This document shows, one piece after another, positions 7,058 through 28,707 of a DNA stretch of 49,975 nucleotides. The notes below the pieces were generated by a model. The model made no database searches and had not been told where the DNA came from. It saw only the letters and a program-made list of their open reading frames with translations. The first letter of the stretch is position 1. Each line of letters starts with the position of its first letter. The position numbers and the translations under genes are program-made. This DNA is from an uncultured Verrucomicrobiota bacterium (GTDB lineage Bacteria > Verrucomicrobiota > Verrucomicrobiia > Opitutales > Opitutaceae), in assembly GCA_903904685.1 (NCBI GenBank), contig CAIVDS010000041.1, positions 1-49,975 of the forward strand, given 5' to 3'.

Positions 7058-8317
7058 GTGCTCCCCTCGTTCCTCGGCCCCATCTTCGCCAGCGCCGGCC
7101 TCGGCGCGCTCATCGGCCTCATCCGCCAGTGGAGTGAACAGACCGAACACGGAGGCAAAACCGACTTCGGCGGCGTGCGCACCCACACGTTTTGGGCGAT
7201 GCTTGGCTGTCTCGGGGCGGTGGCCAGCCGCGACTTCACTCCGCTCGCGCTCCCCGTGGTCATCACGGTGGTCGCGGCCCACCTGTTGGTCGCGCACGGC
7301 CGCCTGGCGGACCCCGCGTCGCCCGGCAGCACGTCGTTCGCGGCTTCGTTGATCACGCTGTTCATAGGGGCGCTCGTCGCCTGGGACCATACGCAGACGG
7401 CCGTCGTCGTCACCGCGCTCACCATGGTGCTGCTCGGCCTCAAGCAACCAATCCACGATTGGACGCGCGGCTTCACCGCGACCGACATCCGCGGCACGTT
7501 GCAATTCGTCGCCATCACCGGTGTCGTCCTCCCGCTCGTGCCGAACCGCGACCTCGGCCCGTTCGGCGGATTCAATCCCTACGGGATCTGGCTGATGGTC
7601 GTGCTTATCTCTGGACTGGGATTCATCGGCTACATCGCGATGCGTCTGCTCGGCACTCGGGCCGGCATTCTCCTCACCAGCCTCTTCGGCGGACTCGCCT
7701 CCAGCACGGCCTCGACCCTCGCCTTCAGTCGCCGCAGCCGCGAAGATCCCGCCCTCTCGCTCGATTACGCCTTCGCCGTGGTGGTCGCCTGCACCGTCAT
7801 GTTGCCGCGCGTGGTGTTCATCATTTTCTTCCTTAGCCCCGCGCTCGCCTTGCGCATCGCGCCGGCCTTCGCCGCGATGATGATTCCCTCGATCGCCTAC
7901 GGAGCGTGGCAATGGTGGGCCGCCCGCCACACGGAGAAGGGTGTGGTCGCCTCTCCTACCATGGCCAACCCGCTCGGTCTGCTGACTGCGATCAAGTTCG
8001 GTCTGCTGTATGCGACCATCGCTTTTCTGGTCAAAGTATCCACCCAACTCGAAGGTCAGTCCGGGCTTTTGCCGCTCAGTTTCGTCTCGGGCCTGACCGA
8101 CATGGATGCGATCTCCCTGTCGATGGCCAACAACCTGCGCTCAGGAACGGTCGACATGAAGATGGCCGCGCGCGCAGTCATCATCGCCGCCGTCGCTAAC
8201 TCCCTGATCAAGACCGTGCTCGCCGCCAGCCTGGGATCCCCCCTGCTGCGCCGCCGAGTGAGATCCGTGCTGCTAGTGACCGCCGCCGTCGGTGCAGGCG
8301 CGGCCTTGCTGGTATAA
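7058..8317 (+). CDS. MgtC/SapB family membrane protein with DUF4010 domain
   Basis: Polytopic inner-membrane protein of unknown transport or sensing role, about 419 aa. The N-terminal MgtC-like part begins SFLGPIFASAGLGALIGLIRQ, with a conserved charged RQW after the first helix and GGVRTHTFWAMLGCLGA. The C-terminal DUF4010 part contains SLFGGLASSTASTLAFSRRS and SGLTDMDAISLSMA, both typical. About ten hydrophobic segments are visible. The start is uncertain: there is no in-frame ATG before the first helix, so I chose the GTG at 7058; a TTG at 6947 would add a non-hydrophobic leader and overlap lysS. It is divergent from lysS and followed 51 bp later by lipB. Confidence 0.85.
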   Translation: MLPSFLGPIFASAGLGALIGLIRQWSEQTEHGGKTDFGGVRTHTFWAMLGCLGAVASRDFTPLALPVVITVVAAHLLVAHGRLADPASPGSTSFAASLITLFIGALVAWDHTQTAVVVTALTMVLLGLKQPIHDWTRGFTATDIRGTLQFVAITGVVLPLVPNRDLGPFGGFNPYGIWLMVVLISGLGFIGYIAMRLLGTRAGILLTSLFGGLASSTASTLAFSRRSREDPALSLDYAFAVVVACTVMLPRVVFIIFFLSPALALRIAPAFAAMMIPSIAYGAWQWWAARHTEKGVVASPTMANPLGLLTAIKFGLLYATIAFLVKVSTQLEGQSGLLPLSFVSGLTDMDAISLSMANNLRSGTVDMKMAARAVIIAAVANSLIKTVLAASLGSPLLRRRVRSVLLVTAAVGAGAALLV

Positions 8318-26407: not shown

Positions 26408-27439
26408 ATGAGCACACCAAAACGAATCGGCCTGATGGGCTGCGGCATGGTCGCCCAATACGGACACATACCCGCCATCCAGTCGGTGCCCTCGCTGCAA
26501 TTGCACGCCCTGTTCGACCCCAACGAGGACAATCTCCGCAAAACCCAGGCCCGGTTCGGCATCCCTCATGCGTTCACCGACGCGGAGGCCTTCTTCAAAT
26601 CCGGCCTCGACGGCGTCAGCATCACTTCCCCCGCCCCCTGTCATCATGACAACGTCATGCAGGCCGCCGCCCACCGCATTCCCGTCCTCTGCGAAAAACC
26701 CCTCGCCATGAACCGGGCCGAGGCGGAGCGCATGATCGCGGCGATGGCCGCGGCCGGCGTTTCCCTCTATTCCGGGTTTTGCTATCGCTTCAGCCCCTGC
26801 GCGCTCAAGATCCGCGAGCTGGTCCGCTCCCGCGCGATCGGCGAGGTGCGCTCCCTGCGCCTCATCTACAACTGGTCCCTCCACGGCAAATTCACCGTCG
26901 AGGCGGACGGTCGCCGCGTGATCCAGAAACGCCGCGAAGACCGCATGCTCGAAGGCGGCCCCATGATCGACTGCGGCACCCACCAGATCGATCTCGCCAC
27001 GTTCTGGCTCGGTTCGCCGGTGCGCTCGTTCAGCGCCAAAGGTGCCTGGGTGGACGATTATCAGGCACCGGACCACATGTGGGTCCACCTCCTGCACGCC
27101 AACAGCGCGCACACCGTGGTTGAGATCAGCTACTCCTACCACCACACTTCCAAAAACCGCCGCTGGGAGTTTCTTTACGAACTGATCGGCACCGAAGGGG
27201 TGATCCGCTACGACCGCGGGACCGAGAGCTTCACGGTCGAAAACGGCGAAGGCCGGCAAGACCTTGAATTCGGCCCGGAGAAGAACTTTGACGGCATGTA
27301 TGCCGAATGGGCCCGCGCGCTCGCCACCGGCTCCTCCGAACTGCTCACCACCGCCGGGGAAGGCATGCGCGTCGTCGAGATCGCCCGCCAGGCCACCGAC
27401 GACGTCATCGCCAGCCGGCACGCATCGTCCGCTCCGTGA
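26408..27439 (+). CDS. Gfo/Idh/MocA family oxidoreductase
   Basis: NAD(P)-dependent dehydrogenase, 343 aa, canonical in form. The nucleotide-binding loop is GLMGCGMVAQYGHIPA (about 8-23), the catalytic-region motif is CEKPLAMNRAEAERM (about 97-111), and the C-terminal domain has GGPMIDCGTHQIDLATFWLG with the conserved Asp and His. It is transcribed away from the interrupted heparinase-like gene and presumably oxidises or epimerises a sugar released by that locus. A palindromic site lies in its promoter. The next 500 bp contain a degenerate repeat instead of a partner gene. Confidence 0.92.
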   Translation: MSTPKRIGLMGCGMVAQYGHIPAIQSVPSLQLHALFDPNEDNLRKTQARFGIPHAFTDAEAFFKSGLDGVSITSPAPCHHDNVMQAAAHRIPVLCEKPLAMNRAEAERMIAAMAAAGVSLYSGFCYRFSPCALKIRELVRSRAIGEVRSLRLIYNWSLHGKFTVEADGRRVIQKRREDRMLEGGPMIDCGTHQIDLATFWLGSPVRSFSAKGAWVDDYQAPDHMWVHLLHANSAHTVVEISYSYHHTSKNRRWEFLYELIGTEGVIRYDRGTESFTVENGEGRQDLEFGPEKNFDGMYAEWARALATGSSELLTTAGEGMRVVEIARQATDDVIASRHASSAP

Positions 27440-27957
27440 GCAAACCGGAGTCCGCGAACCCGACCGCCCTTGCCCGGTGTCCGTGCGCTTTCTGCCGAGG
27501 GTAAGCAAACTCCAGCCGTTGGCAAAACCGGCTTCTCCGGAGCCTCAATCGGCTTCGCAGGACGGCCAACCGGCATGGCCGGACAACCTTGGGGATGCCC
27601 CGACGGGCGAAAACCCACTGTTTCCGGGCAAAAACCCTTCGTTTCCGCTCAAAATGCTTCCAAATATGGAGAAAATGGCTTCATCGGAGCCAAAAAAAGC
27701 TTCGCCAACGGAGATTCGGCTATCATCGCAGCAAGTTCGGCTAGCTTCCAGTGGATGCTGCGATGCGAACAGGAGTTTGTTGCCGCATTATAAAGAAAGA
27801 GGCGAACCAGTAGGGCTGAGCAGCAGCGTGAGGCATGCTCTTCACGCCTTTCTATTCATACCACCAAAAATCACACGTTGGGACTGGATACGGGAGACCG
27901 CCGGAGCACGCAGCGCCTGCTCGACGCCGCCGGGAAGATATGTCTTTTTATTTACCC
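27440..27957. other. Intergenic region with periodic repeat
   Basis: About 520 bp between the oxidoreductase and the secreted protein. Several frames are open across it, but none has a recognisable start, family motif or codon pattern. The middle (27503-27754) is a degenerate tandem repeat described separately. The end should hold the start signals of the secreted-protein gene. Confidence 0.6.
27503..27754. repeat. Degenerate 21-bp-period tandem repeat, about 12 units
   Basis: Cutting the sequence every 21 bases from 27503 aligns recurring words: GGCTTC then GGA six bases later, with A-rich or C-rich spacers (for example GGCTTCTCCGGAGCC at 27530-27544, GGCTTCGCAGGA one period later and GGCTTCATCGGAGCC near 27677). 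Middle units instead share AAAACCC and TTCC words (about 27608-27650). In one plus-strand frame the units read as heptads such as KTGFSGA, SIGFAGR and ENGFIGA; in another as ENPLFPG and KNPSFPL. Whether it is translated is unknown. Confidence 0.7.
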
Positions 27958-28707
27958 ATGAAACCGTCCCGTCTTCCGGTCCACGGCCTCGGCATCCTCC
28001 TCGTGTCCCTCGCCGCGCACGCCGCCCTCCCGCCTCTGGCGCTGGGCGATCGCACCGTGCTGGCCGACGATTTCACCGACAACCACAACGCCTGGACCAA
28101 CGTCGCCGTCGTGAATGCCGGCGGCGCCCCCGCCACCGGCAAGGCCCGCATCGCGGCCTCCGACTGGAGTTCGTCCGTCCACGATGGAACCGCCGTCAGC
28201 TCCGTCCTTGCCTTCAAGACCCCGCTCGACCTCGCCCAAGGCCCGGTCTCGCTCTACATGACCGTGCGCGTCGACGTCCCGGACGGAACCGACAACAACC
28301 GTTTCAGCATCGGCCTCCAGGAGGCCGCCGGCACCCCCGCCTGTTTTGTGCGCCTGCAAATCCGGCCCGCCGCCGCCGGCTCGATCGAATACCGGAATCC
28401 CGAGGGGCTCGGCCAGTTCACGGCCATCACCCACACGCAGCAATTTCTCACGACCGCCACCGCCTACTACAGCTTCAGGCTCACGGTGACAGGAGCCGAA
28501 AAGGGCAAAGGCCCGGCCACCGCAGAGGCGTTTTATTATGACGCCAGAGCCGCGAAATACGTAAGCCTCGGCCTGGCCCAGTCCGCCGTCTCGCTCGCTA
28601 CCGGCCTCTTTGGCACCCTGGTGTTGAACAGCCGCAACGGCGCGAATGGCGGCGCCGCCTATTTTGACGCCGTCGCCGTCACGCAGGGCCGCGCCCCCAA
28701 GCGTTGA
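27958..28707 (+). CDS. Secreted protein of unknown function
   Basis: Exported protein of about 249 aa. From the ATG at 27958 it begins MKPSRLPVHGLGILLVSLAA, a clear signal peptide with a likely cut near AHA-ALP; an ATG at 27940 adds six residues and sits only 2 bases after a GGGAAG, too close for a normal ribosome site. The mature part starts VLADDFTDNHNAWTN and is predicted to be all-beta, with LYMTVRVDVPDGTDNNRFSIGL, YYSFRLTVTGAEKGKGP and GGAAYFDAVAVTQG, like the laminin-G/concanavalin-type sandwich proteins that bind glycans. No catalytic motif and no C-terminal sorting signal seen. Likely part of the surrounding carbohydrate locus. Confidence 0.75.
   Translation: MKPSRLPVHGLGILLVSLAAHAALPPLALGDRTVLADDFTDNHNAWTNVAVVNAGGAPATGKARIAASDWSSSVHDGTAVSSVLAFKTPLDLAQGPVSLYMTVRVDVPDGTDNNRFSIGLQEAAGTPACFVRLQIRPAAAGSIEYRNPEGLGQFTAITHTQQFLTTATAYYSFRLTVTGAEKGKGPATAEAFYYDARAAKYVSLGLAQSAVSLATGLFGTLVLNSRNGANGGAAYFDAVAVTQGRAPKR

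Follow-up and report, generated by a model that had tools for sequence, protein, structure and literature searches.

Degenerate 21-bp arrays paired with a gene for a predicted helical protein: a candidate two-part dispersed element in an Opitutaceae genome

The degenerate 21-bp repeat lying between two genes of the window, by which we mean the whole 49,975-nucleotide stretch analysed, belongs to a dispersed family of arrays, and every long copy found of one particular gene for which there is upstream DNA, in four species, is accompanied by such an array. The arrays as a group are untranslated, and their spacing is kept while their letters drift. The account we favour, tentatively and at a little short of an even chance, is that array and gene form a dispersed element in which the array acts as a nucleic-acid scaffold whose function depends on spacing, and whose user is probably a partner protein. 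Sequence is the usual means of recognising repeat arrays; in this family the unit length is held as the sequence drifts, and the same unit length is found, in unrelated sequences, upstream of members of this gene family in other species. If the spacing is truly selected, this would be a natural case of a nucleic acid read by its geometry and not by its letters, and the partner protein makes the idea of selection on spacing directly testable.

The window is contig C41 of a genome of 3.23 Mb in 114 contigs, called the own genome below. The region 27440-27957 is a mosaic of a conserved left end, a 21-bp array, the tail of an unrelated gene and the 5' end of an IS110-like element. The features of the locus are as follows.

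26408..27439, + strand: Gfo/Idh/MocA-type oxidoreductase gene, upstream context (ORF; Pfam GFO_IDH_MocA, E 8e-21)
27452..27523, + strand: conserved left end of the element, common to the copies in C92, C35, C19, C17, C44 and C67 of the own genome
27524..27742, + strand: non-coding array of about ten 21-bp units, no two alike, in constant register, with homologous units in C58, C19, C67 and C87
27743..27793, + strand: tail of an unrelated gene, a remnant that matches the ORF at L089:1873-2436 at 77% over 69 bp
27792..27939, + strand: IS110-like insertion sequence, truncated 5' end, found at five other places in the genome
27958..28707, + strand: downstream context gene, with no Pfam family and outside the array-linked gene family (Pfam, family comparison)

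The sequence-only reading had bounded the repeat at 27503-27754. The part conserved in the family starts earlier, at about 27446-27452, some 10 bp 3' of the oxidoreductase stop codon, and the array itself stops at about 27742. The left end contains a small inverted repeat, recognised by eye, followed by the first register anchor. Past the array, the tail of the unrelated gene prolongs one of the open frames of the array by chance. The stretch that the L089 ORF tail has in common with the window covers 27743-27811 and ends within the first bases of the IS110-like element; the neighbourhoods of the two differ. A 66-aa sister copy of the IS110-like fragment scores 16.5 bits against Pfam DEDD_Tnp_IS110, under the 29-bit cut-off, and the window's own 33-aa piece has no Pfam match. 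This truncated 5' end was found at six places in the genome (the window, L002, L006, L007, L008, L014 and L009 are listed) and once in G004; where the end is present, the copies are seen to be cut at differing points. Three of the fragments, in the window, C35 and C85, have a 21-bp array no more than about 1 kb away. A search of window positions 27000-28300 against Rfam gave no match at E <= 1. Our preferred reading of the locus is a truncated copy of an array-plus-gene element, without its gene and beside an IS110-like fragment; we found no trace of the linked gene in the window, and the deletion of the gene is itself not visible there.

The periodicity of the region is real, as the sequence-only reading had proposed, and it is the strongest such signal in the window. 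Over 27503-27754 the identity is 0.472 at lag 21 and 0.40 at lag 42, while 1000 first-order shuffles of the same segment gave 0.257 ± 0.031 at lag 21, and the best of lags 5 to 89 in those shuffles never exceeded 0.402. When the window was scanned in 252-bp frames at 10-bp steps, the 12 highest-scoring frames at lag 21 each started between 27431 and 27541 (best 0.485), and the next unrelated place reached 0.437. Measured against dinucleotide-preserving shuffles the array has a z of 7.2, and its Fourier period is 21.06. The twelve units listed for 27503-27754 do all differ from one another. The remark that the phase never slips is borne out by homologous copies, whose anchors keep their phase modulo 21, but automatic segmentation into units places one 20-bp step near 27570, a call that is ambiguous.

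A search of the own genome with 27440-27957 returned 23 matches, of which 5 fell in the IS110-like part, 1 in the gene tail and 1 was the query itself; the remaining 16 fell in the array part. Chained array searches, the protein search and a 398-kb random sample of the own genome together yielded 31 array stretches, a count that may be too high in terms of loci, since some stretches sit at the ends of contigs, where two of them may be the halves of a single locus, and may also be too low, since the search was non-exhaustive; a small left-end fragment at C91:46436 is excluded from it. The random sample supplied two new arrays, with values of 0.78 and 0.71 at lag 21. A weaker stretch, with 0.51, was seen in the sample at L147 near position 7200.

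All 29 of the own arrays that were scored have a Fourier period of 20.8-21.1, a lag-21 z of 7.2 to 23.8 and a best lag of 21, 42 or 63. The scoring left out C92a, which is too short, and C17, where another stretch was scored; for C43 it likewise took another stretch. The arrays range in size from about 10 to 45 units of 21 bp. By sequence they fall into six groups, with 20, 6, 2, 1, 1 and 1 members and no similarity between groups at E <= 1e-6, and within a group the interiors are replaceable by other units in the same register. Among the 29 arrays with an upstream gene present, a simple gene caller placed 20 behind a same-strand gene and 9 behind an opposite-strand gene, two of the nine depending on low-scoring frames; the arrays thus have a modest preference for sites behind same-strand genes.

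What is kept in these arrays seems to be spacing and not sequence. Within most elements of the largest group, anchor words occur at the same phase modulo 21. In six elements the distances between anchors are 86, 107, 212, 338, 359 and 422 bp, which correspond to 4, 5, 10, 16, 17 and 20 units plus 2 bases. Automatic segmentation of 33 arrays (29 from the own genome and 4 from relatives) found that only 8 of 623 steps were not 21 bp, with adjacent units differing at 41.9% of positions, and the unit length is kept for up to about 44 unit steps amid this wide sequence drift. The step caller does miss some real shifts: a one-base shift in C58b and C9, detected by eye, went uncalled. One-base displacements of the anchors are also seen in C85a and in C35a and C35b, two arrays into which another repeat has been inserted. 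Pairwise alignments of copies contain many short gaps of other lengths besides those of 21, 42 and so on, which we put down to the forced alignment of unlike units and inserted repeats. The arrays were found via their lag-21 signal, a procedure that favours in-register stretches. Because the period lies so close to 21 in every scored array, few steps depart from it and unrelated units share it, a constraint on the arrays acting at the level of nucleic-acid length is supported.

A comparison of the neighbours of the arrays identified one recurring gene family, directly downstream and on the same strand, with a product of about 240 aa. The own genome holds at least ten long copies of this linked gene and one short fragment among the best 11 of 22 candidates scored. 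Upstream DNA is available for nine of the long copies (eight full length, and C14, which the contig end cuts near its 3' end), and each of these nine is preceded by a 21-bp array; C43, the tenth, starts at the end of its contig and has no upstream DNA. The copies within the own genome are paralogues, and the nine cases are not independent of one another.

Copies in other species provide a further check. In a profile search covering 252 family genomes, in which the best 11 candidates per genome were considered and copy numbers are accordingly lower bounds, the linked gene was found in at least nine genomes, the own genome and G066 included. With the best 7 candidates per genome, it was found in at least 4 of 372 genomes in a sample of the order and in at least 3 of 387 in a sample of the phylum, all matches falling in the same family. 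Outside the own genome three full-length copies were found, each preceded by a 21-bp array, with lag-21 z of 13.9 (G010), 8.0 (G011) and 6.7 (G154), and a truncated copy in G003 keeps its array (z 5.3). Gene fragments in G250, G008, G033 and C4, which we tallied apart from the long copies, have no array in front of them.

Between species, the arrays share their spacing only. When those of G010, G011, G154 and G003 were compared among themselves and against the 31 own arrays, the best E was 0.19. The refuting condition set earlier, an absence of similar arrays from related genomes, has a divided outcome: no similar array DNA was found, but the same period was, with the linked gene as guide. The DNA of the window element had no independent homologue among 55 relatives (best 11 candidates per genome), the matches being to the IS110-like part, with the exception of a 22-base match in G009 that has no array. 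The C19 element DNA, searched against the 252 family genomes, found no independent relative, which is a weak test at the best 2 candidates per genome. A 25-base match to an array element in G016 has no array around it, and a pattern scan of the genome collection gave two matches, neither with a 21-bp array. The one strong match to array DNA, in G066, was dropped as being the same contig as the own C12. The two sequences, L083 (G000:C12) and L092 (G066:C88), are 100% identical over 1768 bp in genomes assigned to different genera, and the shared contig has probably been assigned to the wrong bin in one assembly or the other. A genome of the same genus, G002, contains clean tandem arrays of 39 bp x 5.3 (L128:10838-11042) and 32 bp x 6.1 (L133:16320-16514), unlike the degenerate 21-bp arrays.

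The linked gene has intact open reading frames, with a GC3 of 0.84-0.92 in seven copies, and it is fast-evolving, since dN/dS by a simple count is 0.62-0.98 in five pairs. Four copies of its protein had no match at E <= 0.01 in Pfam, NCBIfam or PHROG, and no transposase domain was recognised in it. With one copy as query, there was no match in plasmids, phages or viral contigs. A structure model (pLDDT 82.9, pTM 0.56) predicts an all-helical, long-helix protein built on a repeated plan suggestive of internal duplication, with two 56-residue helices and a low-confidence start. Foldseek gave no match to this model at E <= 0.001. A second structure comparison reached a top Z of 9.7, a value that for helical models may reflect only a common arrangement, and none of the solved structures was clearly related to the model.

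In some copies an internal deletion has removed the gene. C12 equals C98 minus 810 bp: the match stops at a point past the array and picks up again within the gene's final codons. Similarly, C91b retains the array and the post-gene flank of C24, and C58b retains part of the post-gene flank of C9. Among the solo arrays checked for gene remnants, only the tail in C12 and one marginal 28-residue match in C47 were found. We infer that the element spreads within the genome and that solo arrays are left-over or non-autonomous copies of it. MITEs are internally deleted, non-autonomous elements, and the three pairs above resemble them in that the gene-less copies keep the outer parts of gene-bearing ones. 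They differ from MITEs in the lack of a recognised transposase domain in the linked gene.

We propose that a non-coding 21-bp array, followed on the same strand by the gene for a helical protein of about 240 aa, would make up a two-part element. The array, as DNA or as RNA, may serve as a length-calibrated scaffold, whose units, exactly 21 apart, would seat a repeating protein assembly, most likely formed by the product of the linked gene. The sequence of the array could then change freely, with the protein changing along with it. A scaffold read by its spacing is suggested because tests for hairpins, curvature and substructure, given below, returned no common structure; its reader would most simply be the protein that is inherited with it, a conjectural step. 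In a stronger form, which we think possible though rather doubtful, this would be a new class of element in which the information of the array lies only in its spacing, the array acting as a ruler for a co-inherited helical protein, and in which the pair multiplies and sheds gene-less arrays.

The main rival is that the arrays are neutral minisatellites, in which slippage or unequal exchange of whole units keeps the period, and which hitch-hike with a mobile or duplicating gene. We consider this a serious possibility. Higher-order repeats of 42 and 63 bp are present, gene-less copies exist, and some one-base register shifts are tolerated. The interiors of arrays are also replaced more quickly than the gene is: in C19 and C98 the genes are 85% identical over 744 bp, and the arrays have no match longer than 60 bp. 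Against it, the period of 21.0 returns with unrelated units in four other species and in six unrelated groups of the own genome, and steps other than 21 bp are rare for the divergence. To gauge the latter we simulated drifting arrays. At an indel:substitution ratio of 0.05, 72 of 551 steps were called as non-21 (202 true indels), and at a ratio of 0.005, 11 of 565 were (17 true indels); the real arrays resemble the lowest simulated ratio. Also weighing against a neutral origin, 380 kb sampled from two genomes of the same genus contained no segment with lag 21 best and above 0.53, although segments of 0.49-0.53 did occur, and these could include an array no stronger than that of the window (0.51).

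A specific physical structure of the DNA is a further alternative to a scaffold read by its spacing. Since 21 bp is two helical turns, a bend recurring once per unit would sum to overall curvature. Predicted curvature does peak at a helical repeat of 10.5, with a mean z of 3.7 against mononucleotide shuffles in 20 arrays under a wedge model. The effect is uneven, with z above 5 in 8 of the 20 arrays but below 2 in 10, and 3.2 for the window array, and no 10.5-bp component was found as a substructure of the arrays. A phased bend is on these grounds unlikely.

Structure at the RNA level was examined in several ways. No helix covariation was found in 73 non-redundant dimers out of 203, the best mean z over four stacked pairs being 1.72. 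An RNA hairpin in each unit was thus rejected: some units resemble small inverted repeats, but no helix covaries. Folding of 24 arrays (up to 420 nt), compared with column shuffles that do not preserve dinucleotides, gave a mean z of -0.80 for the sense strand and -0.21 for the antisense strand, a sense-strand excess that is suggestive at most. The sequence-only reading had offered a periodic DNA or RNA structure as one of two explanations; of this, a constraint on spacing at the nucleic-acid level stands, while the helix-covariation, curvature and 10.5-bp tests settle no specific type of structure.

The layout of array and gene recalls type III toxin-antitoxin systems, in which a repeat RNA made upstream binds the protein. 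In ToxIN, as described in PMC8860590, a tandem array directly precedes a small gene of the same strand, and ToxI has 3 to 5.6 repeats, alike in core and fold, with a pseudoknot as the core. Repeats directly 5' of a small same-strand protein gene are likewise what we see, in 9 of 9 own and 3 of 3 other-species copies. The arrays here differ, however, in having about 10-45 units that diverge by about 42% within an array, no covarying helix, and a protein predicted to be an all-helical bundle of long helices. The 140 nt before the gene start in 12 copies have no common stem-loop or other shared shape (folding z -2.56 to +1.06), and at C9, the one locus scanned, the only terminator-like site is at chance level and at the far end of the array. 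The PADLOC defence library returned one weak match, to 1 of 15 members at E 0.017. We judge an arrangement of this type distinctly improbable.

The other explanation first offered was a coded heptad peptide, and the window array does have at least two open plus-strand frames, as claimed (0, 0 and 1 stops). A fully open plus frame across the array is found in only 5 of 30 arrays (26 own, 4 from relatives), the window array being one of the five, and the other 25 have stops in all sense frames. The GC signal has no 3-bp period: its lag-3 autocorrelation is -0.061 ± 0.016 over 15 arrays of differing unit types, compared with +0.12 in one coding gene used as a control. Of ten harmonics in the GC profile, that at 3 bp is the weakest. 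Changes between copies are spread evenly over codon positions (1093, 1072 and 1082), which is weak evidence alone, as the linked gene, with its long intact frames, is nearly as even. A coded heptad across the family was therefore rejected, and is very improbable even with the window's open frames and the two arrays described next.

In two copies, C113 and C26, the array continues gap-free as far as the linked gene's start codon or past it. At L119:3736-3935 and at L180 (reverse strand, around the start codon) array-like units become the N-terminus of the linked protein, and those at the N-terminus in C113 read as heptads.

Among known repeats, pneumococcal BOX elements (boxA-boxB(n)-boxC) offer a close parallel. 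They are dispersed and intergenic, and between their conserved ends lie tandem internal modules whose number varies; open frames occur on both strands in some of them, and the authors favour transcription as untranslated regions (PMC3049150). The likeness lies in the left and right anchors common to several copies of our largest group and in lengths that differ by multiples of 21. However, BOX modules are described there as alignable families with predicted RNA stems, whereas here the unit sequence is nearly free and no stem covaries; internal modules are not conserved as in BOX, since unit types differ between copies and even neighbouring units diverge. The portions of that paper drawn on here mention no gene belonging to BOX, whereas a gene family is linked to the arrays here.

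Resemblance to a second kind of repeat is slighter. Cyanobacterial STRR (short tandemly repeated repetitive) heptamers are degenerate intergenic tandem repeats, as our arrays are, and 21 is 3 x 7. They differ in that our arrays have no significant 7-bp sub-period (lag-7 autocorrelation 0.034 ± 0.023); a 7-bp excess in the GC profile is unsupported by that autocorrelation. Our search of the open-access literature found no description of such arrays, and nothing usable on cyanobacterial heptamers or on iterons and helical turns. The array-plus-gene element can be described as a dispersed modular repeat with its own gene, and there is a real chance that it is of a categorically new kind.

Two other dispersed repeats, both palindromic, were seen in the own genome. 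One, of about 110 bp, occurs at L072:3133-3244 and in L073, L076, L086, L119 and L124, and adjoins or sits inside several arrays; of three arrays that contain it, two have a one-base register shift (C35a and C35b) and one does not (C21a). The other, of about 147 bp, occurs at L016:1348-1505, L075 near 4053 and L122:2053-2204. In C67 it lies within an array, to which it adds exactly 147 bp (7 x 21), so that the register is kept.
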